This document shows, piece after piece, positions 2,103 to 52,082 of a stretch of DNA of 64,000 nucleotides (within the stretch, counting starts at the first letter, position 1; every line of letters starts with the position of its first letter). The DNA is taken from assembly GCF_038396755.1 (NCBI RefSeq), contig NZ_CP149822.1:6014844-6078843 (forward strand), written 5' to 3'. The notes beneath the pieces are model-generated. The model made no database searches and was not told where the DNA came from. It saw nothing but the letters and a program-made list of their open reading frames with translations. The stretch comes from Chitinophaga pollutisoli (GTDB lineage Bacteria > Bacteroidota > Bacteroidia > Chitinophagales > Chitinophagaceae). The position numbers were made by a program, and so were the translations under genes.

Positions 2103-3353
2103 ATGAAGAACGCAATGTTGAAACCTGCTTTACTGGCGCTGCTGATGAGTCCGGCGGCGCTCATGGCCCAGAAAGCCAATCTGCCAAAACAAATCACGGT
2201 AAAAGGATCAGTGAAATTCGCCACGCCCGAAGGCCAGCCACGCAAAATATGGCTGAGCCGCGACAATGGCACCGGCAAACCCACCGTCGTGGATTCCGTG
2301 GAACTCGGTCCTGATCTCACCTACTCCTTCCGCATCAAACAAGACCATCCGGGTATTTACAAACTGAACGTGATGTATTGGGATCATATCACCTTCTGGA
2401 GCGATGCCGATGTAAAAGTGGCTTCGCGCGGGTACGACACGGCAAAGATGAAAGTGAAAATCCCGCACTTCTACTTCGTGGATGGCTCGTCCGACAACAA
2501 CTTCATCAACCAGATGGAATTGAATAACACCAACGGTTACCTCCGTTCGGTCGACGAATACAACCAGGAGTATTATGCCAAGCAGCATAAGGAAAAAACC
2601 GGAGATTCCGCCTGGGCGAATTACTGGAAGGACCGCCGCCGTTATAATCCCCTGCGCGAAGACAATGACCAGCGCGAAGATCTGCTGATGAAAGTGTATA
2701 AAGACCGCCCCGTGCTGATTTATGCCCTCCGCAGCGCAGGCAGCCCGCACGACACCACGCAATACGCATCCACCCTGCGCCAGCTGGATCATCTCATCAA
2801 ACTGTACCCCTGGCTGAGTGAGGCCAAAAACCTCAAAAACACCATCATCAAAAACCGCGCGCAGATGATGAAGCTCCAGCCCGGACAGCCCGCGCCTTCC
2901 ATCTCCTACCCGGACAACTTCGGCAAGCTGCAGGGATTGGAAAAATACAAGGGAAAATATCTCCTGGTCGATTTCTGGGCTAGCTGGTGCGGCCCCTGCC
3001 GCCAGGCGATCCCGAAAGTGAAAGAACTGCATGAGCAATACAAGGCGAAAGGCCTCGAAGTAGTGAGCATTTCCATCGATACGGACAAGAAAGCCTGGGA
3101 AAAGGCCATGGCGGATGAAAATATGCCCTGGGAGCAACTCCTGAGCGACAACAAAGACAAAACGATGGAGCTTTACCAGTTCTCCGGCATCCCCACGCTT
3201 TACCTCATCGACCGCGAAGGCAAGATCGTGACCAAGTTCACCGGTTACAGTCCCGAAGCGGAAGCCATGATCAAACAGGCGATCGAGAAAGGCATCTCCG
3301 GACAGGCCCAGCCCGCGGGAGAAAAGAAAGTGATCAAGGCAATGTCCATGTAA
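2103..3353 (+). CDS. TlpA-family thioredoxin-like protein with N-terminal DUF4369-like domain
   Basis: 416 residues. A signal peptide (first ~22 residues, ending LMAQ) suggests the periplasm. Residues ~25-130 form a beta-rich domain like DUF4369 and the middle is helical. From about residue 260 there is an AhpC/TlpA-type thioredoxin domain with the redox motif WASWCGPCRQ and the cis-Pro segment SGIPTLYLID. Such proteins keep periplasmic thiols reduced or act as disulfide reductases; the target is unknown. It is the third gene of the SusCD operon and is followed 11 bp later by a second gene of the same type. Confidence 0.9.
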   Translation: MKNAMLKPALLALLMSPAALMAQKANLPKQITVKGSVKFATPEGQPRKIWLSRDNGTGKPTVVDSVELGPDLTYSFRIKQDHPGIYKLNVMYWDHITFWSDADVKVASRGYDTAKMKVKIPHFYFVDGSSDNNFINQMELNNTNGYLRSVDEYNQEYYAKQHKEKTGDSAWANYWKDRRRYNPLREDNDQREDLLMKVYKDRPVLIYALRSAGSPHDTTQYASTLRQLDHLIKLYPWLSEAKNLKNTIIKNRAQMMKLQPGQPAPSISYPDNFGKLQGLEKYKGKYLLVDFWASWCGPCRQAIPKVKELHEQYKAKGLEVVSISIDTDKKAWEKAMADENMPWEQLLSDNKDKTMELYQFSGIPTLYLIDREGKIVTKFTGYSPEAEAMIKQAIEKGISGQAQPAGEKKVIKAMSM

Positions 3354-3364
3354 TATAAACAGTC

Positions 3365-4537
3365 ATGCAGCAATTAATCTTTTCTGTCATTGCGATGGCG
3401 GCTGCCTTGCAGGTTTCCGCGCAGCAAAAGTATACGGTAGACGTGTACATGGCCGGCCAGGAAGGGCATAAGCTCACGTTGAGTTATGTCCGTAAAGGCG
3501 AAAGGCGTTCGGATACGGCCCAGCGCCTCCCCGACGGCGGGCTCCGTTTCAGCGGGGAGATGGAAGGTCCGGTAGTGGCGGTGATGTTGAACAACCACCC
3601 GGCCAGCCGTTTCCAGTTGTCGCAGGGTGGTATGTTCATTCCCGGCCCTTTACTGGAATTTGTGCTGGAAGACGGGCGCACTGTTATCAAGGGAACTTCC
3701 GAAAAATCGTTCATGGCGATTGCCAAAGGCGGCAAGCTGAACACGGAATTCGCGAAGTTCCATGCCCGGGAATTGCCGCTGATTGAAAAGAAATGGGAGC
3801 TGACGAAAGAAGGCGCCCTGGCTTACAAAGGCGGCGATACCGCGCGTTCCACCGCCTGCAGGCAGGAAGGGAATGCGCTGGATGCGAAAAGGAAGGAGCT
3901 GCAGCGGGAGTATATCGTAAAGCACCCGGGTTCCTTCGTGAGCATGTACTTGCTGAGCACCCTCTATGAGGAATATACACCGCAAGCGTATGCCGAGGTT
4001 TACGGAAAGCTCGCTCCCGCCTGGAAATCGACTTTCTACGGAAAGCTGATCGCCAACAAGATCGAAAGCACCCGCGCCACGGCCATCGGCATGCCCGCGA
4101 TTGATTTCACGAAGAAAGACCTTCAGGGAACAGACTTCTCGCTGTCGTCCCTCAAAGGGAAGTACGTGCTGGTTGATTTCTGGGGCAGCTGGTGCGGCCC
4201 CTGCCGCGCAAGCCACCCGCATATGCGCAAGCTTTACGATCAATACAAGTCGAAAGGTTTTGAAATCGTAGGTGTTTCTGATGAAAAATCGCCAAGCCTC
4301 GAAAGCGCGGAAAAGTCCTGGAAAGGCGCCGTGGAAAAGGATGGGATCAACTGGCTGCATGTGCTGAACAACTACGGTAAAGGCGATTTCGACCTCGTAC
4401 AGAAATACGGCATCACCGGTTTTCCCACCAAATTCCTCCTCGACCCCCAGGGCAAGATCATCTGGAAGCTCGTGGGCGGTGGTAAGGAAAGCGAAGACCA
4501 GCTCGACGGGAAGCTAAAAGAATTATTAGGCCAATAA
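3365..4537 (+). CDS. TlpA-family disulfide reductase
   Basis: 390 residues, signal peptide ending around VSAQ, an N-terminal DUF4369-like beta domain (TVDVYMAGQEGHKLTLSYV), a helical middle, and a C-terminal thioredoxin domain with WGSWCGPCRASHP and the cis-Pro segment TGFPTKFLLD. Both CxxC cysteines are present, so it should be redox active. It is diverged from the preceding gene but has the same domain order, suggesting an old tandem duplication. A terminator lies 28 bp past its stop, making it the last gene of the SusCD operon. Confidence 0.9.
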   Translation: MQQLIFSVIAMAAALQVSAQQKYTVDVYMAGQEGHKLTLSYVRKGERRSDTAQRLPDGGLRFSGEMEGPVVAVMLNNHPASRFQLSQGGMFIPGPLLEFVLEDGRTVIKGTSEKSFMAIAKGGKLNTEFAKFHARELPLIEKKWELTKEGALAYKGGDTARSTACRQEGNALDAKRKELQREYIVKHPGSFVSMYLLSTLYEEYTPQAYAEVYGKLAPAWKSTFYGKLIANKIESTRATAIGMPAIDFTKKDLQGTDFSLSSLKGKYVLVDFWGSWCGPCRASHPHMRKLYDQYKSKGFEIVGVSDEKSPSLESAEKSWKGAVEKDGINWLHVLNNYGKGDFDLVQKYGITGFPTKFLLDPQGKIIWKLVGGGKESEDQLDGKLKELLGQ

Positions 4538-4564
4538 CGCGGTTGGTATGATAAGCAAGAAAAA

Positions 4565-4591
4565 GGGACGCTTCCGGGCGTTCCTTTTTTT
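4565..4591. terminator. Rho-independent terminator between convergent genes
   Basis: A 7-bp stem (4565-4571 with 4578-4584, one G-T pair) with a 6-nt loop is followed by seven T on the plus strand. It ends the SusCD-TlpA operon; the A run on its left lets it also act, more weakly, for the reverse-strand regulator. Confidence 0.75.
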
Positions 4592-5231
4592 ATGCCTGGA
4601 TAAGCCCTTGCTGCACGGCCAGCCGGATCATGGACGCCACATTGGGCGAACCGAATTTCTGTAGGAGGTTTTTGCGGTGGGTTTCTACCGTCAGCGGGCT
4701 GAGATGCAGCATAGCGGCGATGTCGGTCGTGGTTTTGCCGTCGGCGATGAGCAGGAGGATTTCTTTTTCCCGCCGGGTGAGCTGCGGCATCTCCCGAAGC
4801 TCCGTGGCGGAGGGTTTGGCCATAATCTCGCGGACGGCTTTGCTGAACGTGAGGAGTCCTTCATGCGCTTCGCGGATGCAGCGGATGAGCTCGTCGGCCG
4901 CCACGTTCTTTAGCAGGTAGCCGGAGGCGCCTTGTTGGAGCATCTGGAGGATCATGCTGCGCTCAGCGTGATTGCTGAGGGCGAGGATGCGGGTGGCGGG
5001 GGAAATGTTCCGGATGTCGCGGCAAAGGTCGAGGCCGCTCGTGTCGGGCAGGGCGATGTCGAGCAGAAGGATGTCGGCGTGGGAAGATTGAAGAAATTCC
5101 AGGCATTCGCGGCCGCTGCCGAAGCAACCGGCGATCTCCATGCCGGGGGCCGCTTCCAGCAGTTTCTGCAACCCCTCGGTTATCAGCGGATGGTCGTCTG
5201 CAATGGCGATCTGAATGGTTTGTGAAGACAT
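4590..5231 (-). CDS. NarL/FixJ-type response regulator (REC plus LuxR HTH)
   Basis: 213 residues. The N-terminal receiver domain has the acidic pair in IADDHP (residues ~10-12), the phospho-acceptor Asp in LLLLDIALP (~residue 57) and the conserved Lys in YLLKN. The C-terminal LuxR-type helix-turn-helix has LTRREKEILLLIADGKTTTDIA and LSPLTVETHRKNLLQKFG. These regulators normally pair with HisKA_3 sensor kinases and bind DNA as phosphorylated dimers. No kinase gene is adjacent. The only HisKA_3 kinase in the window is at 50.1-52.1 kb; a partnership would be a guess. Confidence 0.95.
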   Translation of the reverse strand: MSSQTIQIAIADDHPLITEGLQKLLEAAPGMEIAGCFGSGRECLEFLQSSHADILLLDIALPDTSGLDLCRDIRNISPATRILALSNHAERSMILQMLQQGASGYLLKNVAADELIRCIREAHEGLLTFSKAVREIMAKPSATELREMPQLTRREKEILLLIADGKTTTDIAAMLHLSPLTVETHRKNLLQKFGSPNVASMIRLAVQQGLIQA

Positions 5232-5348
5232 GGCGTTTGCGGGCTGGATGCATCCCGCGTCTCAAAAATATCAATTATTCGCAACGGCGAGGCATCCCGT
5301 TCCGAAACTACCGGGAAACAGGTAGGAAATTTCACCCGGATGAAGGTA

Positions 5349-5379
5349 TTGAACCAGGCCGGGACTGGTTTTACTTTTG
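5349..5379 (+). promoter_or_regulatory. Candidate Bacteroidota-type promoter for the small lipoprotein gene
   Basis: TTG at 5349-5351, a 20-bp spacer, then TACTTTTG at 5372-5379, which matches the TAnnTTTG -7 consensus exactly. It lies 65 bp before the lipoprotein ATG and within the divergent gap to the response regulator. Confidence 0.6.
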
Positions 5380-5443
5380 TGATGCGCAGTATATCCATGC
5401 GCCGCGGCGCTGCTAACCATTACCATTTAAAACAAACGCTTAT

Positions 5444-5833
5444 ATGAAATCATTGAAATTGCTCTGCTTGCCGCTGTTAGCCCTTTCGATCGGCCTGGCC
5501 GCCTGCGGCGGGAAAGATAAGGACCCCGTACCCGGCGGTTCCGCGAAGAAAGTACAATACAAAGCTACCGCCAGCGCGGGCGTGCAATTGTATTCCGCCA
5601 TATATGGCTACGACCAGTCCATCACCACAGTAACAAGTATCGGCGGTACTACCTGGGCGAGCCCGGTGATCGATGTGCCTGCTTCCGCCAGGGGCGGCAC
5701 CTGCGTAGTAGGCGCTGTTGGCGCGAATGCGCAGTCTACGCTGAAAGTAGAAATGTTCGTCAACGGCGAACTGGTGAAAACGGGTACCTCCAGCGGTACG
5801 GCGCTTTCCGCAGGCACTAATTTGGTGTTTTAA
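5444..5833 (+). CDS. Small lipoprotein of unknown function
   Basis: 129 residues. The N-terminus is a clear lipoprotein signal (LALSIGLAACGGKDKD, Cys21 lipidated). The mature part of ~108 residues is rich in Ala, Thr, Ser and Gly with alternating strands (YKATASAGVQLYSAIYGYD, LKVEMFVNGELVKTG) and looks like one small beta-sandwich. I do not recognise a family. It stands alone behind its own promoter, divergent from the LuxR-type regulator, which might control it (inference from position only). Confidence 0.8.
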   Translation: MKSLKLLCLPLLALSIGLAACGGKDKDPVPGGSAKKVQYKATASAGVQLYSAIYGYDQSITTVTSIGGTTWASPVIDVPASARGGTCVVGAVGANAQSTLKVEMFVNGELVKTGTSSGTALSAGTNLVF

Positions 5834-5963
5834 CAGGGCATGATAATATCCGCCGTAATCGCCAAACGATTAGTAAAACCGGCCGGTTTCGCGTCCGGTT
5901 TTCGCTTTTTCGTTGAACGGAGTGATGATTTTGATTAAATTGGGGAAAGAAATTCCCTCCGCC

Positions 5964-6494
5964 ATGCATCCTGCCGACTTCCGCATCCGCCCGCTCGCCA
6001 ATAACGAAACCACGCTGGCCGCATTATCCGCCTTGTTGATGGAAACGGTGGCCCATGGGGGTTCCGTGAGTTTTATGCATCCCTTGCCGGAGCATGAAGC
6101 GCGGGCTTTCTGGCAGGGATCTTTGGCGGCGGCAGCCAACGGAGGGCGGATCGTCCTGGGTGCATTTGATGCAGCCGGTAAACTCGCCGGGACGGTGACC
6201 CTCCTGCTCGATCTTCCTCCCAACCAGCCCCACCGCGCGGAGATCGCCAAGATGATGACCGGCGTCGCCTATCGCGGAAGGGGCATTGCCCGCGCGTTGC
6301 TGGCTTTCGCGGAGCAGCTGGCGCTCCAACACGGGCGTACCCTGCTCACCCTCGATACGGCGGAAGACGATGGCGCCGCAGGTTTATACGAAAAATCCGG
6401 CTACCAGCGAAGCGGCGTCATTCCCGATTTTGCGCTTAAACCCCACGGCGGCCTTACCGGTACGATCATTTTCTGGAAGCGGCTCCGTTCCTGA
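5964..6494 (+). CDS. GNAT-family N-acetyltransferase
   Basis: 176 residues from ATG 5964; in-frame ATG 5925 and TTG 5913 would add up to 17 residues, but the GNAT fold begins with FRIRPL just after the chosen start. The acetyl-CoA binding loop is seen in VAYRGRGIARALLAFAEQLA (motif R/QxxGxG/A), followed by the LTLDTAEDDGAAGLYEKSGYQRSG region typical of the C-terminal half. The enzyme should transfer an acetyl group from acetyl-CoA to an amine; the substrate is unknown. Monocistronic and convergent with the next gene. Confidence 0.88.
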   Translation: MHPADFRIRPLANNETTLAALSALLMETVAHGGSVSFMHPLPEHEARAFWQGSLAAAANGGRIVLGAFDAAGKLAGTVTLLLDLPPNQPHRAEIAKMMTGVAYRGRGIARALLAFAEQLALQHGRTLLTLDTAEDDGAAGLYEKSGYQRSGVIPDFALKPHGGLTGTIIFWKRLRS

Positions 6495-6513
6495 ATAATT
6501 ATTTTGTTGTAAC

Positions 6514-7344
6514 CTATTCCCCCGGATGCGATTCCCATTTCTCACCATGCGGCACGCGATATTGCATTTGCGTATATCCATTGATGTTGTAAGCGTCACC
6601 CATGCCGTGGTGCGCGCATGCAACCATCCCCGTTACTTTCCCTTGTGTATCACGGGTAAACTTAAACGTCAAATCCCGTTCTTTTGCAAAAAATACGTCT
6701 TGCCGCTCGGGGAAAAGGGACATGGGTTCCCGCGCCGTATGCAGCACCAGCCAGCCATTTTCCGCTGAAATAGTGAGCGCATTTTCCGGCCCTTTGTATT
6801 TCCCCGAAAAAGCCTGTAAGGTTTCTTTCTTCATTTCCAGTGTTTTTCGCGTATTCTCGTACGGGGCAGGGCCATGGTCGAAACTCAGTATCCGCGCCAT
6901 CTTCCACCTTCCTTCCTGTAAAAGCAAAAGGTGCGTAAACTTCGCAAGGCCGTCGCGGTATTCATGCGTATTCTTCAGGATATAGAAATAATGGCTGCCG
7001 GAGATGATAGCGCCGTAAAGCGAATCGTTTTTACGTAAGGGAAACACCATTACCGTACCCGGCACCGCTTCCCTGCGCAGGCTGAAATCGTTGCCGGGCT
7101 TGCAAAGGCCGTTGGTGAAGCTTTTCATCATCGCGTCTGCCCCGAAGGTAGGGCCGCCTTTATCGTGGTAAAACTCCACATCGTCCGTCAGCATGGGCCG
7201 TATTCCGGACAGGTTGCAGGTATTGTAGCTTTGCCAGAAAAGGCTGTCGGCCGCCAGTACGGCTTTGGTAACCTCTGCGTCGGATTGCGCGCGGGCTAGC
7301 AAACAAAATAGCAGGGCGTTCAGGGTTAAAATGGTACTTTTCAT
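6514..7344 (-). CDS. Secreted NTF2-like (DUF4440/SnoaL-type) protein
   Basis: 276 residues from the ATG at 7344 (MKSTILTL), chosen because a signal peptide ending in ARAQS follows; a longer frame to 7392 adds 16 residues without purpose. Residues ~25-150 resemble a nuclear-transport-factor-2-like domain (AADSLFWQSYNTCNLSGIRPMLTDDVEFYHD, then GRWKMARILSFDH). The remaining ~110 residues form a second beta-rich domain (FSGKYKGPENALTISAENGWL), like a lipocalin-type extension. Function unknown; probably periplasmic. Confidence 0.8.
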   Translation of the reverse strand: MKSTILTLNALLFCLLARAQSDAEVTKAVLAADSLFWQSYNTCNLSGIRPMLTDDVEFYHDKGGPTFGADAMMKSFTNGLCKPGNDFSLRREAVPGTVMVFPLRKNDSLYGAIISGSHYFYILKNTHEYRDGLAKFTHLLLLQEGRWKMARILSFDHGPAPYENTRKTLEMKKETLQAFSGKYKGPENALTISAENGWLVLHTAREPMSLFPERQDVFFAKERDLTFKFTRDTQGKVTGMVACAHHGMGDAYNINGYTQMQYRVPHGEKWESHPGE

Positions 7345-43822: not shown

Positions 43823-45601
43823 CTATGCGGGTTGCGGCTTGCGCGCGGGAAGATGTTTTTCGAGCAATGCCTGGAGGTCGGCGTAGAGGAAGGGTTTAAC
43901 GAGATAGTCGCTCGCACCCAGGCGCAGCATGCTCTCGCGGGCTTCGGTGAATGCATCACCGGAAGCAATGATGACGGGAAGATGCCGCAGCGCGGGCGTG
44001 TTGCGGATATATTGCAGTACCTGCGCGCCCTGGATGCCGGGTAAATGGCTGTCGGAAATCACGAGATCGGGAATGGTAACGCCCAGCATACGGAGGCCCT
44101 CTTCCCCGCTTTCAGCCATAAACGCCACGGCGCCGGCGTCTGTCAGGTAGCGTTGCAGTACGTGACGGCTGATCACATCGTCTTCCACCACCAGCACTGT
44201 ATAGCCGTCGAACCGCGCGGCCCGGCGCGCCACGGGGCCGGTGGCTTCCGGGCCTTCCGCGCCTTCCGCGCCAACGAGCGGCAGCATAAACCGGAATACC
44301 GTGTGCATGGGCTGGTTTTCGGCAGAAACCTCCCCGCCCAGGCGCTCCGTCAGCTGGCGGGTGATCTGCAGCCCGAGGCCGGTGCCTTCCACTTCCCCGT
44401 TCCGCTCCGCCACAAAAGGCTGGAACATATCGGCGAGCTTCTCCGGCCGGATGGTGCCTTCATTTCTCACCGTTCCCATCAGCCGTTCGCCTTTCCTTTC
44501 CAGCCGTACTTCCACCAGCGAGCCCGCCGGCGCGAATTTCACGGCGTTGGACAACAAGTTGTTGACGATTTTGGTGAGGAAGATCCGGTCGGTGGCGATC
44601 CATTCCGGCAACGCCGGGTGGATATGCAGCTGGATGCGCACATCGCGGGTATTGGCCACATACCGGTTGATGGCCACGCATGCCTCGATGCTTTCGCGCA
44701 GCAATACCGGCGCGGGATGCGGTTCATCGAGCATGCCGGCTTCTATTTTGGCGAGGTCGAGTACGTTATTGATGATTTCCCGGGAAAGGTAGCTCGCGGC
44801 ATACAAATACCCGATCTCTTCCCGCAGCGCCGGGTCGCCGATCTGCATCTTTCTTTCGTTCAACAGCTGCGCGATCCCGAAAACAGCATTGAGCGGCGTG
44901 CGGATCTCGTGGCTGGTTTCACGGAGAAATTTGGTCTTGGCCGCATCGGCTACCTTCAGGGCTTCCATCAGAAGTTCATTTTCGCGGAGGAACATATCGT
45001 TCTGGCGGATGATGAAGTAAGTGACATATCCCATCAATGCCAGCATCCCAGCCCAACAGGCCATTTTCACGATCGGCATGTTGGCAGGCACAACGTAGAT
45101 AGGCTCCACGATCCCGAAATAATGATTTGCTTCCACCGCCAGCAGGAGCGCCAGTGCTGCAAAAAGGGTCACCAGGCGGAGGTTTTTATGCTTGAATACG
45201 ATGAAAGACGCACCGATGAGGAAAGTCAGCAGGAATGCCGTGATCATTTCGATGGGCATGGCGTTGCCAAGCATCGACCCGAAATATACGGCGAAAGTAC
45301 AGTGGATCACCAGCGTGGCCAGGCTGGCCTGCGAATAACAGCCGCGATGGTTGAGGTAGATGACGCCCACCCAGCACAGGCACTCTAAACCGGCAGGTAC
45401 CAGTATCCGTAAAGAACCTGTATACCAATAGAGCAACGATGCCACCACGGCGATCAGGAACGCCGTCAGCAGCGAAAGGGTGTTGATAATGACGATACCG
45501 CGCCGTACCCGGGGATTGTTTACCCCGGCGGTGCCGGTATGGATCCAACGTTGCAGGATGTCCTTCAGCAGGGATCGTTGGCCAGGGATCCTAGTTTCCA
45601 T
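43823..45601 (-). CDS. Hybrid sensor histidine kinase with C-terminal receiver
   Basis: 592 residues. About six N-terminal membrane helices (IINTLSLLTAFLIAVVASLLYW to CWAGMLALMGYVTYFIIR, residues ~30-200) make the sensor. HisKA has the phospho-acceptor His in TSHEIRTPLNAVFGIAQLL (~245). HATPase_c has NNLLSNAVKFAP (N box) and GEVEGTGLGLQITRQLTERLGG (G2). The receiver (residues ~465-585) has VLVVEDDVISRHV, the acceptor Asp in LVISDSHLPG and Lys in YLVKPF. No separate output gene adjoins it, so the signal must go to a remote regulator. Confidence 0.94.
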   Translation of the reverse strand: METRIPGQRSLLKDILQRWIHTGTAGVNNPRVRRGIVIINTLSLLTAFLIAVVASLLYWYTGSLRILVPAGLECLCWVGVIYLNHRGCYSQASLATLVIHCTFAVYFGSMLGNAMPIEMITAFLLTFLIGASFIVFKHKNLRLVTLFAALALLLAVEANHYFGIVEPIYVVPANMPIVKMACWAGMLALMGYVTYFIIRQNDMFLRENELLMEALKVADAAKTKFLRETSHEIRTPLNAVFGIAQLLNERKMQIGDPALREEIGYLYAASYLSREIINNVLDLAKIEAGMLDEPHPAPVLLRESIEACVAINRYVANTRDVRIQLHIHPALPEWIATDRIFLTKIVNNLLSNAVKFAPAGSLVEVRLERKGERLMGTVRNEGTIRPEKLADMFQPFVAERNGEVEGTGLGLQITRQLTERLGGEVSAENQPMHTVFRFMLPLVGAEGAEGPEATGPVARRAARFDGYTVLVVEDDVISRHVLQRYLTDAGAVAFMAESGEEGLRMLGVTIPDLVISDSHLPGIQGAQVLQYIRNTPALRHLPVIIASGDAFTEARESMLRLGASDYLVKPFLYADLQALLEKHLPARKPQPA

Positions 45602-46070
45602 GCATAGCGGGTTATAAAGAATACGTCTCTCTAATGTCTCTCATGTCTTTTGAACAGTTGTAGTAACATTCCCGGCCAAGATACAAATTTTTTATCTGGC
45701 ATTGTGGAATCCCGCAAAACCCCGCATCCGGAGAGTACAATCAAAACATATTCCCTGACCATGCGCGCCGTGATCTGTTATTGACGTCCCATTGCCTCCG
45801 CGCAGGATCGCAAATCCGATTTCGCCGGAAAGTAACGTGCACAGGCAGGTTCAGCCGGTTTGTATTTTGTTTCCGGACATAGCTCTTGGCATGCAGGCGC
45901 TGAAATAACAGTGCTGCCTGCCCGGTAAAGAAGGACGGCCGCGGTAGCGCTTTCAGGCCATGGCCGCTCCTTTTCTCGTAGGTTTTATTTTTGCGCGATT
46001 AAAAAATCCTCTTTAAACTTGCATTCGAAATACGGCGTTAGCACACATCGTATCGTAGAACCCGAGTAAT
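45602..46070. other. Intergenic region upstream of the DUF2589 operon
   Basis: Divergent gap of ~470 bp with no credible coding frame and only short peptides. A promoter candidate sits at 45991-46021. The rest is unremarkable mixed-composition sequence; a small RNA cannot be excluded. Confidence 0.6.
45991..46021 (+). promoter_or_regulatory. Candidate promoter of the DUF2589 operon
   Basis: TTG at 45991-45993 (within TTTTTG), a 20-bp spacer, and TAAACTTG at 46014-46021, one base off the TAnnTTTG consensus. Transcription would begin near 46028, about 45 bp before the GTG at 46071. Confidence 0.55.
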
Positions 46071-46178
46071 GTGAATGAGCCCCAACTCCTGTGTGCTTAC
46101 CTGTTTCACCCGGAAAATTTTACCGCATCAAAAGGAAAGGAATTTGAAGTAACCCCAGGCTTCCTTGAAAAACATGTT

Positions 46179-46640
46179 ATGACCCCGAAGAACGATTCCG
46201 CTCAGGAGCTGCCCGTTACACAGCTGGCCCTGCAGCAATTGATTTCCGCACCCCTCCGCGCCATGATGGAAGCGCAAACCGCCTCCGCGCTGGCCTCCGC
46301 AGAACTGGTCCGCAAAATCAGTTTTTACGAGCCCGAACCCGGCAAACGGGAAATCGCCATGGCGGATTTCAGCCACTCCCGCAACGGCGAAACCCGCCAA
46401 ATCCGCGTTCCCCTCATCTCGCTGGTGCCCGTGCAGTCGCTGCGCATCTCCGAAGCAAAAATGTCTTTCAACGTAAAAATGATCCATATCGAAAAACGGA
46501 ACGGAACGATGAAAGCCGCGCCCGCTTATCAGAAAAGCGGTACCACGCAAAAGCATTTCGAAATGAACATGCAGGTTTCGGCCGTGCAGGAAGAGCTGCC
46601 GGCTTCCCTCCTGGCTGAACTGGGCGTTTCGCCCGAATAA
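46179..46640 (+). CDS. DUF2589-family protein, first paralogue
   Basis: 153 residues from ATG 46179; a GTG start at 46071 would add 36 residues (total 189). The DUF2589 core is visible: LALQQLISAPLRAMMEAQTASALASAELVRKISF (helix that opens the family), a strand IAMADFSHSRNGETRQIRVPLISLVPVQSLRISEAKMSFNVKM, and a closing FEMNMQVSAVQEELPASLLAELG. No signal peptide or membrane helix. The VPLISLVPVQSLRI block is shared with the next gene (VPLIAMLPVPSLRI). Function unknown. First gene of a four-gene operon. Confidence 0.85.
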   Translation: MTPKNDSAQELPVTQLALQQLISAPLRAMMEAQTASALASAELVRKISFYEPEPGKREIAMADFSHSRNGETRQIRVPLISLVPVQSLRISEAKMSFNVKMIHIEKRNGTMKAAPAYQKSGTTQKHFEMNMQVSAVQEELPASLLAELGVSPE

Positions 46641-46687
46641 CCCCACCGCTACCTTCTATTTATTCAATAATTAAATGTCAAAAAACA

Positions 46688-47407
46688 ATGGCAAAGATTA
46701 ATCCTAAAAGCCGTTCTACCCCGCGGCCCCGCGTAGCGCCCGCTACTGCACCCACTGCAACCCCATCCACCCCCGCCGTAACCGCCGCGGCAGACGTAGC
46801 GGCTGACTCCACCCGCAAACTCGCCAGGGCCGTTTCTTCCAGCCGGGCGCCCATGGCCAAAGGCATCAATACCGACCTCGTGTCGCAGCTGAATGCCATC
46901 GACTTCAAGAAAATGATCGGCGGCCCGCTCCAGGCGGCTGTTGACGCCCAGGTGGCATCCGCGCTCGCTACCGTGAACTTCATTAACGAAGTTGGCTTCA
47001 CCAAAGCCGAAGGCAGCGAAGAAAAAGAGTTGATCATGGTCGATTTTACCCACGAAAGAAGCGACGTGAACGATGAAGGCGAAGAGGTAAAAAAGAAAGT
47101 GTATGTGAAAGTGCCCCTCATCGCCATGCTCCCCGTACCGAGCCTGCGCATAGAGCACGTGATCATCGATTTTAACGCTAAACTGAATTCCGTCGAATCT
47201 TCAAAAGTGAGCGAAGATATCGGAGTGAACGCCGAACTGAAAGTAGGTTGGGGACCTGTGAACTTCAAGGTTTCCGCCTCTTACCAACGCAAATCCGTTA
47301 CCGGCGTGGAAGTGAAAAAGGAATTCGCACTGAATGTAAACGTGAAAGCCGTGCAGGACGAAATGCCCGCCGGCCTGGAAAGAATTCTCGGAATGCTTTC
47401 CGCATAA
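46688..47407 (+). CDS. DUF2589-family protein, second paralogue
   Basis: 239 residues. A ~50-residue Ala/Pro/Thr-rich N-terminal extension (STPRPRVAPATAPTATPSTPAVTAAADVAAD) looks disordered. The core repeats that of the previous gene: FKKMIGGPLQAAVDAQVASALATVNFINEVGF, LIMVDFTHERSDVNDEGEEVKKKVYVKVPLIAMLPVPSLRIEHVIIDFNAKL, and the end FALNVNVKAVQDEMPAGLERILGML. Between them lies an extra strand pair (VNAELKVGWGPVNFKVSASYQRKSV). Cytoplasmic by sequence. 47-bp gap from the first gene, 79 bp to the third. Confidence 0.9.
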   Translation: MAKINPKSRSTPRPRVAPATAPTATPSTPAVTAAADVAADSTRKLARAVSSSRAPMAKGINTDLVSQLNAIDFKKMIGGPLQAAVDAQVASALATVNFINEVGFTKAEGSEEKELIMVDFTHERSDVNDEGEEVKKKVYVKVPLIAMLPVPSLRIEHVIIDFNAKLNSVESSKVSEDIGVNAELKVGWGPVNFKVSASYQRKSVTGVEVKKEFALNVNVKAVQDEMPAGLERILGMLSA

Positions 47408-47486
47408 ACATATACCGGCGCCCTTTTCCGGGTTCGCGGAACAAGGGCGCCCATTTCCGTTTTCGTAGCTTTCAATTTCAAGCAAC

Positions 47487-48317
47487 ATGTCAAATATCAC
47501 CCTGGCAGACTACGTCGGTTTTATTTTCTCCGAAATCACCCGCGCCCGCGACCATGCAGACCGTGTGGCGAAAGACATGGCGATCGCATATTCCAAGGAC
47601 GATGTCCTGAAACATTTTTCCGTTCCCCGGTTCAAGATCCCGGAAATGGAGCTTACCATCCCCGTGCTCATCTCCTCCGCCAAGTTCTCCAATGCTATGG
47701 CATTCACGATGCCGGCCGAAGACTTCAAAAAATATGTCAACAACCGCGTCAATTCCGCCATACAGACGCTGCTCATCGCCAAATCCAAGCTCAGCCAGAA
47801 TCCGGGAAATGTAAAAGACGATATCTTCGATATTCCCATATTCCGCCAGCCTACCAATTACGAAACTTCCTTCGCGATCCGGTCGAAGAAAAGCCGGAAA
47901 GCCATCGCCACCAACGTGCCTGCGGAAGAGCCGGCTGACAAATTCTACCGCTTGCTGAAAGAAAACAGCGAACCTTCCAAGCCGGAGAATATCGCGCAGG
48001 TTTGCCTGGCGGAGATGTTCAATGCGCGGCTGGAGCAATATTCGCTGGTGGCTTTTTACAAGGAACAGTATCCCGGCAACGAGATGTTTACCCAGATGGT
48101 TACAGAAGTGGTGGCGCGGATAAAAGAATATACGATGGTGACGCAAAGCAAGATGGAAAACCTGCTGGTGAACCCCGAAACCAACATCGTAAAAAATGGC
48201 AGCAGCGATGCCACCGTGTTTACCATCAAAGCGAAAATCCAGGAAGAAGGCGTGTTTGTGCGCACGGTGCGGAACGAAGAAACCGGCCAGGATCAGCAAA
48301 TTGTCGAATTCGAATAA
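47487..48317 (+). CDS. DUF2589-operon third protein, possibly a distant paralogue
   Basis: 276 residues, no signal peptide. The N-terminus is helical (LADYVGFIFSEITRARDHADRVAKDMAIAYS) and is followed by a strand-rich part with VPRFKIPEMELTIPVLISSAKFS, which recalls the VPLI...SLRI block of its neighbours. A middle helix (VNNRVNSAIQTLLIAKSKL), a linker, then helices (AQVCLAEMFNARLEQYSLVAFYKEQYPG) and a final strand pair (DATVFTIKAKIQEEGVFVRTV). No named family recognised with certainty. It lies 9 bp before the fourth gene. Confidence 0.8.
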   Translation: MSNITLADYVGFIFSEITRARDHADRVAKDMAIAYSKDDVLKHFSVPRFKIPEMELTIPVLISSAKFSNAMAFTMPAEDFKKYVNNRVNSAIQTLLIAKSKLSQNPGNVKDDIFDIPIFRQPTNYETSFAIRSKKSRKAIATNVPAEEPADKFYRLLKENSEPSKPENIAQVCLAEMFNARLEQYSLVAFYKEQYPGNEMFTQMVTEVVARIKEYTMVTQSKMENLLVNPETNIVKNGSSDATVFTIKAKIQEEGVFVRTVRNEETGQDQQIVEFE

Positions 48318-48326
48318 CCTCCTCCA

Positions 48327-48920
48327 ATGCAAAGGTTCCATCATCAGATCCGGCACGACCTTGCCGCGCTGCTGGGCGCGCTGAGCGCCGTTACTGAAAA
48401 ATACAGCCGTAGGGATTACGATACCGACGCGGCTTTGCGCACCCTGCTCGACCGGGTGAACGCCGATTACAAAGACAAGGGCCTGCCAGACCGTGAGAGC
48501 CAGTTGCAGTTGCTGCGGGCGGAATGGTCGGCAGCGGAGAAGGGAATCGATCCCTGTTCCGGCGAAAAGGTGACTGTGCGCCGCGGTGAAATGAAGGCCT
48601 CGGCCATGCTGAAAATCCTGCGCGGGCTGGAAACGGTACTGCGGGAAGATTACACTGCTTCCCGGTCCAGACTGGAAGAAGCCGCGGCCATGATCGGGCA
48701 GATCATCGTGGCGGGGTACCAGGAGGGGCTTATAGACGATAAACTGCTGCTATCGGTGAATACAGAGACGGAATACCTGAAGCTCTGGAAAACGCTGGCG
48801 ACTGACCGGAATATTGCGCTGGGGCAGAAGCGGGTGATGACGATGGTGAGCATGCCCGACGTACTGCTATTGCTGGAAGAAGTCGTGCCGCCGATGGTTA
48901 AAGGTGTGGCGCTGATGTAA
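48327..48920 (+). CDS. DUF2589-operon fourth protein, all-helical, unknown
   Basis: 197 residues, no signal peptide. It is predicted almost wholly helical (HHQIRHDLAALLGALSAVTEKYS, SAMLKILRGLETVLREDYTASRSRLEEAAAMIGQIIVAGYQEGLI). No catalytic motif or known domain was seen. The short 9-bp gap behind the third gene and the terminator-like hairpin ~100 bp downstream make it the last gene of the operon. It may be the partner or chaperone for the beta-rich DUF2589 proteins (inference only). Confidence 0.78.
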   Translation: MQRFHHQIRHDLAALLGALSAVTEKYSRRDYDTDAALRTLLDRVNADYKDKGLPDRESQLQLLRAEWSAAEKGIDPCSGEKVTVRRGEMKASAMLKILRGLETVLREDYTASRSRLEEAAAMIGQIIVAGYQEGLIDDKLLLSVNTETEYLKLWKTLATDRNIALGQKRVMTMVSMPDVLLLLEEVVPPMVKGVALM

Positions 48921-49018
48921 GAATGTCCATCGTTTTGCATAGCTGTTTGGAAAACGGGGAAATCCTTCCACAAAAAAGATATAGAATTAAAATACATACT
49001 TATAATAGTTATCAGATA

Positions 49019-49048
49019 GCGTCCTGATTTTGAAGGGCGCTTTTTTTT
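49019..49048 (+). terminator. Terminator of the DUF2589 operon
   Basis: A 7-bp stem (49019-49025 with 49034-49040, one G-T pair), an 8-nt loop and eight T. Confidence 0.8.
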
Positions 49049-49155
49049 ACCTTTAAAAAGCGGAAAAAAAGGGGTATATTTAATAAGATCTGACTGCAAC
49101 GACTGTTACGCTCCAGTGAATCAAAGCTGATTACTTCACCGTAAACTTAAAGCGC

Positions 49156-49364: not shown

Positions 49365-49607
49365 ATGACAACCGAACAATATCACATTCGCATGCAATAC
49401 GACGGCCGGATTTTCGAACTGCCGGTGCAGATTACGCTGGCAGGCCCTTATTGCAAGATCAGCGTGGTGGTAGACGGCACGGAGATCGCGTTCACACGCG
49501 ACAGGCATTGCGGCTTACGGGCCATTAACCATGAAAACGACTTCGATGTGCAGTTCCTGTATATGTTGGGAAATGAAATTGTGCTGCAGAGGCCGGTATA
49601 CAATTAA
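49365..49607 (+). CDS. Small hypothetical beta protein, 80 residues
   Basis: 80 residues, cytoplasmic. Strands alternate (YHIRMQYDGRIFELPVQITLAGPYCKISVVVDGTEIAFTRDRHCGLRAI) and the end is FDVQFLYMLGNEIVLQRPVYN. It looks like one small beta barrel or sandwich. No family recognised. Followed by a GC-rich hairpin. Confidence 0.7.
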   Translation: MTTEQYHIRMQYDGRIFELPVQITLAGPYCKISVVVDGTEIAFTRDRHCGLRAINHENDFDVQFLYMLGNEIVLQRPVYN

Positions 49608-49805: not shown

Positions 49806-50123
49806 ATTCCGTGCTTGACGGGATGCAAAGGTAGGAATTTTTTACAATTGCGCAAATAATTTTTACAAATCCGTATATTTTTTGATGTCTGTGTGTGGGA
49901 TTATCGCCCGGAAAGAGTTCCAGGCGGTGGTTGTTGGCTGACATTCGTGCTCAGCGTGAAAGTTAAATTGCATGAAATACTTCGGGGTTCATCTTTGACG
50001 GTGTAAAAATTAACGGATAATGACCGGAGGGCAATCGCCTGACACGGGTGGAAAGTACTACCGGGAAACCGGTATTGGGCGGTGCGGAATAGATGTGTAG
50101 ATTCGTGGGTGGAATGTAATCGT
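49806..50123. other. Spacer holding the tRNA promoter
   Basis: About 320 bp between tRNA-Arg copy 1 and the histidine kinase gene. It contains the reverse-strand tRNA promoter (listed separately). No credible gene; the promoter of the kinase was not resolved. Confidence 0.6.
49826..49856 (-). promoter_or_regulatory. Promoter of tRNA-Arg copy 1
   Basis: Reverse strand: TTTG at 49856-49853, a 19-bp spacer, TACCTTTG at 49833-49826, a perfect -7 element, ending ~20 bp before the tRNA 5' end. Confidence 0.8.
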
Positions 50124-52082
50124 ATGATGCGAATATTTTTGGCTTGCCTGCTGATGTGGGCGGGCGGCACATCCCTCAGGGCACAACAACTGAACAGCCG
50201 GCAATGGCAGGATAGTATGCGGGAGGCCATTTCCATTGCAGGCACCGACAGCGCCCGGGCGGTGCTGGCGTTCCAGCTCTCGGAGCACCTTTCCCTGCGA
50301 GATACCTTGCAGGCCGCGCATTTCCTCGGGCAGGGGTTCCGTTGGGCGGGACGTTCTCCCCTGCTTCAGGCCATTTACCCGTACTATGCCGCCCTGCTCC
50401 GCTCGCGTACCGACCCCTCCGGCGCCGAAGCTCTCTATCTCCGCGCGGACTCCCTCCTGGCGCCTTTCCCCGGCAACCTGGCCCTTACCATCCGCTCTAA
50501 AGCCGTCCACCGCTACGGCGCGCTCCGTATGCTGACGCAGGACCCCACGCAGTTCGCCGACCTGCTGCTCCATAAAGCCATTCCCCTCGCCCGCCGCACG
50601 GGCGACAGCGCCCTGATCGGCAAACACTACCTGGGCATAGGTTATGTGTTCCGCAACCACGGGCAACACGATGTGGCCGACGGCTACATGCGCACGGGTG
50701 CGCGCATCATGGGCAACGGTCCTGAAACGGCCGAACAGCGCATCGTCACCTACATCGCCTTGTCGGAAAACCTGAGCCTGGCGGGCCGCAACAACGAAGC
50801 GCCGGAAATGCTCGCGCATGCGCGGGAGCTGCTGGCGCCCTGGCCGGAATCGGACCACTGGGTGGATTACTACGCGGCGGAGAGTTTGTATTTCAATGAA
50901 GCGAAGGAATGGCAACAGGCGCTGGAAAGCCTGTCCAAAGGGAGCGTGTACGCCGATAAACTGCATAAAGTCTATGAAAAACAGCGGCTGCAATTGCAAC
51001 AATATTACGCACTTCATAACCTCGGTTTATACCGCGAAGCCCTGCGCGTGGCGGAGCACCTGATGCGGCAGCCGGAGATGACGGCCATCGTGACGAACAG
51101 GCTGTTGCTCTACGCGGGACTGGCCGATACCTGGGCGGCGCTCGGGAACAAAAGTGCGGCTTACGCCTGGCAAAAACAATACAGCACGGTGAGCGACAGC
51201 TTCCATGCCAGCCGCCTGACACAGGAGATCGGCGCGATGGAAATCCGTTACCGCAACGCAGAACAGAAAGAGAAAATCGCTATTCTGGAAGCGGAAAAAA
51301 AACAGGCGCAGCTGGCAGGAGAAAATTCCCGGCTTTCCCTTTGGTTGATGGCGGCTGCTTCCGTGCTGGTGGTGGTCATCGCGGGATTTATTTTTGTGCA
51401 TTACCGCAACGGCCGAAAGCTGGCGTGGCAAAAATTACAGGAAATGAAACAACGCGGGGAGCTGACCACCTCGCACGCAATGCTTGAAGGCGAAGAGCGC
51501 GAGCGCCGGCGCGTGGCGCGCGATCTGCACGACGGGCTCGGCGGCATGCTCGCGGGCATGAAGATCAAGTTATCGGGTATTGCGGCGGAAAATGAAGGTG
51601 ATGCGTTGTATCAGGTGATCGGCCAGCTCGACCATTCTGTGAATGAATTGCGCCGCATCGCGCGGAACATGATGCCGGAAAACCTGCTTAAATTCGGGTT
51701 GGAAACAGCGCTCCGCGATTTATGCGAGTCACTGTCCTCCCCCGCTACCCATATCCGTTTCCAGGCGTACGGCGTGGCGGCGGATTTGCCGGTGCAAACG
51801 CAGGTGACCATCTATCGGATCGTACAGGAAGCGTTGGCCAACGCCATCCGGCATGCCGGCGCCAGGGAGGTGTTGTTGCAATGCACGCAGGACGGGCAGG
51901 TGTTTTTTATCACAATCGAGGACGATGGCAAAGGGTTCGATGTGCCGGCCAAAGAGAAGGACCCCGGCACCGGGCTCGCCAATATCCGCAACCGCGTGCA
52001 TTTCCTGAAAGGGAAAATGGATATTCATTCCGTCGAAAACGAAGGTACTTCCATCAATATCGAATTGCAGGTGAATGGCTGA
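50124..52082 (+). CDS. TPR-containing sensor histidine kinase (HisKA_3 type)
   Basis: 652 residues from ATG 50124 (the adjacent ATG 50127 is equivalent). Signal peptide (ACLLMWAGGTSLRAQQ), then ~370 residues of helical TPR-like repeats facing the periplasm, a membrane helix (LWLMAAASVLVVVIAGFIFVHY, ~420-440), HisKA_3 with the acceptor His in VARDLHDGLGGMLAGMKIKL, and an HATPase domain with ITIEDDGKGFD and GTGLANIRNRVHFLKG. Such kinases phosphorylate NarL-type regulators. No regulator adjoins it. Confidence 0.94.
   Translation: MMRIFLACLLMWAGGTSLRAQQLNSRQWQDSMREAISIAGTDSARAVLAFQLSEHLSLRDTLQAAHFLGQGFRWAGRSPLLQAIYPYYAALLRSRTDPSGAEALYLRADSLLAPFPGNLALTIRSKAVHRYGALRMLTQDPTQFADLLLHKAIPLARRTGDSALIGKHYLGIGYVFRNHGQHDVADGYMRTGARIMGNGPETAEQRIVTYIALSENLSLAGRNNEAPEMLAHARELLAPWPESDHWVDYYAAESLYFNEAKEWQQALESLSKGSVYADKLHKVYEKQRLQLQQYYALHNLGLYREALRVAEHLMRQPEMTAIVTNRLLLYAGLADTWAALGNKSAAYAWQKQYSTVSDSFHASRLTQEIGAMEIRYRNAEQKEKIAILEAEKKQAQLAGENSRLSLWLMAAASVLVVVIAGFIFVHYRNGRKLAWQKLQEMKQRGELTTSHAMLEGEERERRRVARDLHDGLGGMLAGMKIKLSGIAAENEGDALYQVIGQLDHSVNELRRIARNMMPENLLKFGLETALRDLCESLSSPATHIRFQAYGVAADLPVQTQVTIYRIVQEALANAIRHAGAREVLLQCTQDGQVFFITIEDDGKGFDVPAKEKDPGTGLANIRNRVHFLKGKMDIHSVENEGTSINIELQVNG

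Follow-up and report, generated by a model that had tools for sequence, protein, structure and literature searches.

DUF2589 (PF11655) is a Pfam family without a stated function. In a search of the open-access literature (subscription papers and preprints lay outside it), we found the family mentioned only in a study of Archaeoglobus fulgidus, which, in the part that deals with the region AF0414-AF0417, describes short DUF2589-related genes that are up-regulated with lactate (PMC3949148). A further point of comparison is offered by Trypco1 and Trypco2, which, according to the relevant section of one paper, were named for their co-occurrence with trypsin-like peptidases in conflict systems (PMC7159879), and which a passage of another terms adapter domains (PMC10907252). 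Here we describe a four-gene operon of Chitinophaga pollutisoli (assembly GCF_038396755.1) whose first two genes encode DUF2589 proteins. It lies in a 64,000-nucleotide stretch (contig NZ_CP149822.1, positions 6,014,844 to 6,078,843; "the window", in which all positions below are counted) that forms the end of a 6.08-Mb single-contig genome. The order of genes 2, 3 and 4 is kept across five phyla and recurs beside three unrelated types of peptidase, subtilase (S8), papain-type (C1) and astacin-type (M12A), although genes 3 and 4 have no counterpart in the curated family libraries that we searched. This trio is real, widespread and apparently undescribed; the same literature search found no description of it.

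A conserved trio led by a DUF2589 gene

When named genomes were scanned with a DUF2589 alignment, 311 relatives were confirmed; we retained the top 80, which occupy 79 loci. These loci (labeled L plus a number where one must be singled out) come from Bacteroidota, from Actinomycetota (Humibacillus, Jiangella, Herbidospora, Streptosporangium and Nucisporomicrobium) and, as metagenome-assembled genomes (MAGs), from Planctomycetota, Acidobacteriota and Pseudomonadota. Profiles of all three proteins found the order DUF2589 - gene 3 - gene 4 in 75 of the 79, including two loci with broken copies (L091 and L140), and in each of the other four the contig ends less than 600 bp past the last gene found. 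A preliminary description of the operon, made from its sequence alone, had proposed a four-gene unit; gene order is indeed conserved far past close relatives, and the conserved core has three genes rather than four. An extra DUF2589 gene stands ahead of the trio in six loci, every one from Chitinophaga, among the 79 loci the only genus with this addition, represented here by gene 1.

In a second sample, of 296 Bacteroidota genomes, DUF2589 was present in 19, gene 3 credibly in 12 (the tally of 13 included G038, excluded with an E of 5e-4 and four stops) and gene 4 in 11. All of the gene-3 and gene-4 genomes fall within the 19 with DUF2589; the profiles were built partly from genomes of this sample, which makes presence there circular, but not absence outside the 19. 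Trio order was kept in 11 of 13 gene-3 loci. Gene 3 is missing from seven of the 19 DUF2589 genomes, which shows that DUF2589 also occurs in other arrangements. Of 79 Chitinophaga genomes, 11 have gene 3; in a sample of 396 Actinomycetota, a Chitinophaga-type profile found it in one, the centre genome itself. The three proteins co-diverge (r 0.64-0.84, with 0 of 2000 permutations reaching this, in 29 non-redundant loci), as shared ancestry would also lead one to expect; L091 and L140, with their broken genes, were dropped before a 72-locus distance test. DUF2589 is split in L091, the S8 gene is split in L125, and gene 3 and the S8 gene are fragmented in L140, reflecting either sequencing errors or decay. 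A phage-borne system was considered and rejected: gene 2 matched in 1 of 50,697 phage records and 4 of 72,556 plasmid records, and the DUF2589 alignment matched three viral loci and gene 3 none.

Both gene 1 (49.2 bits, in a longer reading) and gene 2 (109.1 bits) exceed the PF11655 cut-off of 23, which bears out their earlier description as paralogues. The operon was also rightly taken to encode proteins of unknown function, DUF2589 having none assigned and the other two proteins having no curated family: when Pfam was run on each protein, genes 3 and 4 gave nothing above cut-off (top scores 14 and 12.1 bits), PF11655 was unlisted for them at E<=1, and NCBIfam and PADLOC gave no match to either at the same threshold. 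For genes 1-4, matches to PHROGs were no better than E 0.023. Gene 3 is 90% identical to a protein of Chitinophaga caseinilytica, and since some of its relatives bear the precomputed label PF27375, absent from the Pfam copy used, a newer release may list it as a family. Gene 2 alone retrieves 1505 homologues, and a single-sequence search with gene 4 retrieved 12 close relatives only.

The single-chain structural models of genes 2 and 3 were weak, with pLDDT values of 54.6 and 73.6, respectively. When the Protein Data Bank was searched by fold with gene 3, nothing reached E<=0.001 (20 matches were listed up to E 10), and the best sequence match of the three trio profiles to a solved structure had an E of 0.11. 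By a simple hydropathy measure, genes 1-3 lack a signal peptide, as the preliminary description had claimed for all four, but gene 4, at 2.06, approaches the exported controls (2.22-2.95). Across loci the trio has no evident membrane segment, with 19-residue hydropathy maxima of 1.62, 1.46 and 2.01.

Profile comparisons point to a short stretch of likeness to Trypco2, for which we built a profile from 20 of 24 matches in 61 genomes, omitting four partial or weak ones. Against the gene 3 profile it aligned over 42 columns with a score of 26.5 (E 4.2e-4; 15.3 at most in 150 column shuffles), and against DUF2589 over 48 columns with a score of 21.6 (E 4.5e-3; 15.1 at most in 150 column shuffles); with 25 real families taken from these loci it scored no higher than 14.1. 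Gene 3 and DUF2589 scored 27.8 against each other, where 150 shuffles reached 25.3 at most and the real families 23.1 and 20.0 at most. For gene 4, comparison with the DUF2589 profile showed no such motif. Another alignment pair gave E 7.5e-4, and a narrower one gave no match. The earlier suggestion that gene 3 is a distant third DUF2589 copy is supported only as far as a helix and a short strand motif go, and not by the narrower alignments. The profile similarities suggest that gene 3, DUF2589 and Trypco2 have a helix-plus-strand element in common, which makes gene 3 neither a Trypco2 nor a DUF2589 protein; the Trypco2 model (PF19631) was unlisted for genes 1-4 in the Pfam scan at E<=1.

Peptidase neighbours of the trio

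A peptidase gene of type S8, C1 or M12A adjoins the trio in 54 of the 79 loci, as found with probes that were chosen because they adjoin it. An S8 gene lies 3' of gene 4 in 45 loci, 33 of them from Chryseobacterium, and in most cases it is followed by a gene for a small protein of about 67 aa; five-gene S8 loci exist, for example in Kaistella, and S8-type sets include those of Kaistella yonginensis (L097) and Lewinella sp. (L099). A C1 gene follows the trio in four loci, in two of which (L074 and L084) it is accompanied, directly after the trio, by a chagasin-type inhibitor (I42). In five loci an M12A gene lies ahead of the trio: those of two Planctomycetota MAGs, Jiangella, Streptosporangium and a Sphingosinicella MAG. 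Where members were scanned with Pfam, the types were confirmed (L095 and L092 for S8, L074 and L083 for C1, and the full set of five for astacin), and the active-site motifs are present in 43 of 45 full-length S8, 4 of 4 C1 and 4 of 5 astacin-type proteins. Of the 59 peptidase open reading frames (ORFs), 54 are less than 200 bp from the trio; of the five more distant ones, four are fragments of broken genes and the fifth has a small ORF between it and the trio. By the simple hydropathy measure, applied to the longest reading frame, the peptidases show no leader. A trypsin-type peptidase was found only at L033, which has three DUF2589 genes and in which genes 3 and 4 were not found. The preliminary description had mentioned neither peptidase neighbours nor a Trypco2-like motif.

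To rank neighbouring families, all of Pfam was run on 137 neighbours (three per side, 100-800 aa) of 24 loci, picked for variety with their peptidase status known, so that the scan estimates no frequency. S8 came first with 9 members, followed by a secretion-tail domain with 4, astacin with 3 and C1 with 2. There were 127 Pfam families in total, of which 17 had at least two members; among the 25 shown, these were mainly peptidases and housekeeping types. In a 43-row tree of the joined trio (the window plus 42 of the 72 loci, with most Chryseobacterium left out), peptidase type needs at least eight changes, with at least two each for S8 and C1. The window's clade neighbours L074, the locus with C1 and I42, with an SH-aLRT of 91, under the starred level of 95.

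The number of DUF2589 residues before the motif is 116-144 in S8 loci (one unread), 38-82 in C1 loci (the 38 possibly cut by a contig start), 55-169 in M12 loci (one unread) and 15-136 in loci with no peptidase. This extension and the peptidase type are not independent, because the S8 loci are nearly one clade. That the small protein behind S8 is a free propeptide-type inhibitor was not borne out: seven members gave no Pfam match over cut-off, and its likeness to the S8 N-terminus was weak (E 0.021, with 1 of 100 shuffles scoring higher).

Beside the window's operon we found neither a peptidase nor a peptidase-inhibitor pair. An S8 or C1 partner acting in trans in Chitinophaga was rejected: an S8 relative occurs in 5 and a C1 relative in 13 of the 79 genomes of the genus, with no overlap with the 11 that have gene 3. 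Since these 11 have neither, in Chitinophaga the trio works without S8 or C1, has another partner or has lost it.

Layout of the operon in Chitinophaga

The four-gene operon of this Chitinophaga-type genome is real, with four consecutive plus-strand genes at 46071-48920 as first described (Table 1), and no DUF2589 gene was found in the source genome beyond genes 1 and 2. The start first assigned to gene 1, at 46071, would add 36 codons. The ATG at 46179 is the likely start, because the counterparts of gene 1 in four close Chitinophaga copies (L068, L069, L090 and L091) have 153 aa and begin MTP, DNA similarity to five close relatives resumes at 46156-46160, and the DNA just 5' of 46179 is poorly conserved. 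On the same comparison, 46071-46178 is probably a leader.

Table 1. Features of the operon and its flanks (window positions)
Feature	Position	Strand	Basis
ORF 1	46071-46640	+	preliminary reading of gene 1
Gene 1, second DUF2589 protein, 153 aa	46179-46640	+	PF11655 match; likely start, set by relatives
Gene 2, core DUF2589 protein, 239 aa	46688-47407	+	PF11655; leads trio
Gene 3, 276 aa, without curated family; putative N-terminal helix-plus-strand motif	47487-48317	+	profile comparisons
Gene 4, 197 aa, no family	48327-48920	+	library scans, profile
Promoter-like site, TTTG-N20-TAAACTTG	45990-46021	+	sequence; kept in five Chitinophaga relatives
Terminator-like stem and T run	49018-49049	+	terminator scan

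The flanking signals proposed earlier fared less evenly. At the candidate promoter placed at 45991-46021 there is a promoter-like block, with TTTG at 45990-45993, 20 nt and then TAAACTTG at 46014-46021, that is conserved in the window and five relatives (one of which carries TAACATTG instead) and resembles the Bacteroidota promoter consensus; the site is absent, however, from the output of a sigma-70 scan. The terminator claimed for 49019-49048 has an 8-pair stem at 49018-49041 and a T run, although the scan that lists it did no better overall than chance (14 sites, compared with 12.7 +- 3.8 in shuffled sequence).

An 80-aa ORF lies 3' of the operon at 49365-49607, and L068, L069, L090 and L091 also have an 80-aa ORF there. 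Two long genes with the look, by eye, of sensor kinases flank the operon (43823-45601 and 50082-52082); in five close relatives the downstream gene remains linked and the upstream one is about 9 kb more distant. The downstream context is kept in these five, and context varies between Chitinophaga lineages. For an empty-site comparison, the contig of the best relative ends just past the flank.

Further neighbours were noticed in several loci. In L045, from a genome of the same family, the gene directly 3' of the trio encodes a protein of 1398 aa that has SpvB and TcdB-middle domains (2622-6815 of that locus). In L033 (1947-9283), the three DUF2589 genes are followed by two similar small genes and the trypsin-type peptidase, with a weak match to DUF2268 (a predicted protease) farther on, making this another DUF2589 set-up with peptidases. 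Genes for a D-Ala-D-Ala carboxypeptidase-type M15 protein and a patatin-type phospholipase stand ahead of the trio in L144 (6819-8707), and L035 is similar by eye. In L043 (9597-10022) three DUF2589 genes precede a 142-aa protein that has caspase-like His and Cys motifs by eye and no Pfam match; in Tenacibaculum (L139, 11861-12292) a CHAP-domain protein follows the trio. In L040 (2677-8904) a phage-type integrase gene lies upstream of the trio and shares its strand; on the trio's other side, genes for an Endonuclease_NS and a DUF900 hydrolase occupy the opposite strand. Two ThsB-type TIR genes lie a few kb from the rearranged set in L044 (1744-2610).

Possible functions and comparison with known systems

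We tentatively favor, with somewhat less than even confidence, the idea that the trio is a scaffold in the cytoplasm by which a peptidase is held or controlled, because it has no recognisable enzymes, the leaderless peptidases beside it are exchangeable, an inhibitor is present in some C1 loci, and there is a Trypco2-like element. The products of genes 2, 3 and 4 would be parts of one cytoplasmic assembly, in which DUF2589 and the gene 3 protein would form the scaffold by way of their common helix-plus-strand motif and the gene 4 protein would serve as adaptor; the assembly would bind a partner peptidase and control it, keeping it inactive, placing it or releasing it on a signal. In many lineages the partner, sometimes with an inhibitor, would be encoded by the adjoining gene; Chitinophaga, with no such adjoining peptidase, would have added the second DUF2589 copy. 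Several observations weigh against a peptidase scaffold. Independent peptidase cases are few, since 33 of the 54 peptidase loci are from Chryseobacterium; 25 of the 79 loci show none of the three peptidase types (five of these are on contigs that end within 1 kb); and, most tellingly, no S8 or C1 relative occurs in any of the 11 gene-3 genomes of Chitinophaga. The trio itself varies in two of the 13 gene-3 loci of the second sample: L031 has a second DUF2589 gene in place of gene 4, and the order in L044 is DUF2589 - gene 4 - DUF2589 - gene 3. As for the motif, Trypco2 also scores 16.1 against gene 4, the hhalign probabilities are low (34%, 8% and 14%) and the matches are short.

The main rival to a scaffold, which we consider rather unlikely, is that the trio assembles into a particle or conduit for the export of leaderless hydrolases, the adjoining peptidases being its cargo. 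Three of the astacin-type peptidases, leaderless by hydropathy, nonetheless have a PPC domain, which is typical of secreted peptidases, and in single loci the trio has genes for other hydrolases or of toxin families next to it (patatin and M15 in L144, CHAP in L139, the SpvB/TcdB type in L045); however, no ATPase, membrane channel or known secretion part recurs among the 137 neighbours (25 of 127 families shown), and the trio lacks an evident membrane segment. Unlikely on balance, and less probable than scaffold or control alone, is that the trio represents an undescribed cross-phylum machine that stores and releases, or exports, interchangeable leaderless peptidases, with Trypco2 as a reduced relative of the same adaptor fold.

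That the assembly is structural or metabolic and in itself unrelated to peptidases, which would have joined it in some lineages, seems unlikely to us: the Chitinophaga trio without S8 or C1 relatives, the 25 loci without any of the three types and the lactate induction of the Archaeoglobus genes, as that part of the paper reports it (PMC3949148), would all fit, but three unrelated types, at least eight changes of type on the tree and distances mostly under 200 bp argue for a connection. Least probable, by a clear step, is a role in anti-phage defence or self-sacrifice, with the trio sensing infection and then setting the peptidase free. Its patchy presence (11 of 79 Chitinophaga genomes, gene 3 in 12 of 296 Bacteroidota), the Trypco2-like motif, the matches of the S8 protein of L095 to the PADLOC models "subtilase" and IetS, and the ThsB-type TIR genes near L044 are consistent with defence, whereas the surroundings are unlike defence islands, no PADLOC family beyond subtilase (9) and IetS (3) exceeding two of the 137 neighbours of the 24 loci, and none of the four operon proteins matches a PADLOC model at E<=1.

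Compared with what has been described, the operon belongs to DUF2589 in its first two genes, with genes 3 and 4 outside that family. The Archaeoglobus cluster AF0414-AF0417 is similar in consisting of short DUF2589-related genes and differs in that a lactate response alone is reported in the part of the paper that covers it (PMC3949148). The pairing of a papain-type C1 peptidase with a chagasin-type I42 inhibitor is found directly after the trio in L074 and L084; here, however, the trio precedes the pair, the window has no such pair, and the small protein that follows S8 has no match among inhibitor families. The VMAP ternary conflict systems to which Trypco2 belongs (Kaur et al. 2020, as the corresponding section of PMC7159879 describes them) differ in their partners, the trio's being mainly S8, C1 and M12A peptidases, in the lack of a Pfam-level match to PF19631, and in that no vWA, MoxR or VMAP gene is among the 25 families shown of the 127 neighbour families. 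What the trio would share with Trypco2 is the short motif and the company of peptidases. If the scaffold idea is true, it would give DUF2589 a role and bacteria a new kind of peptidase control or delivery, possibly linked to the adaptor domains of conflict systems.

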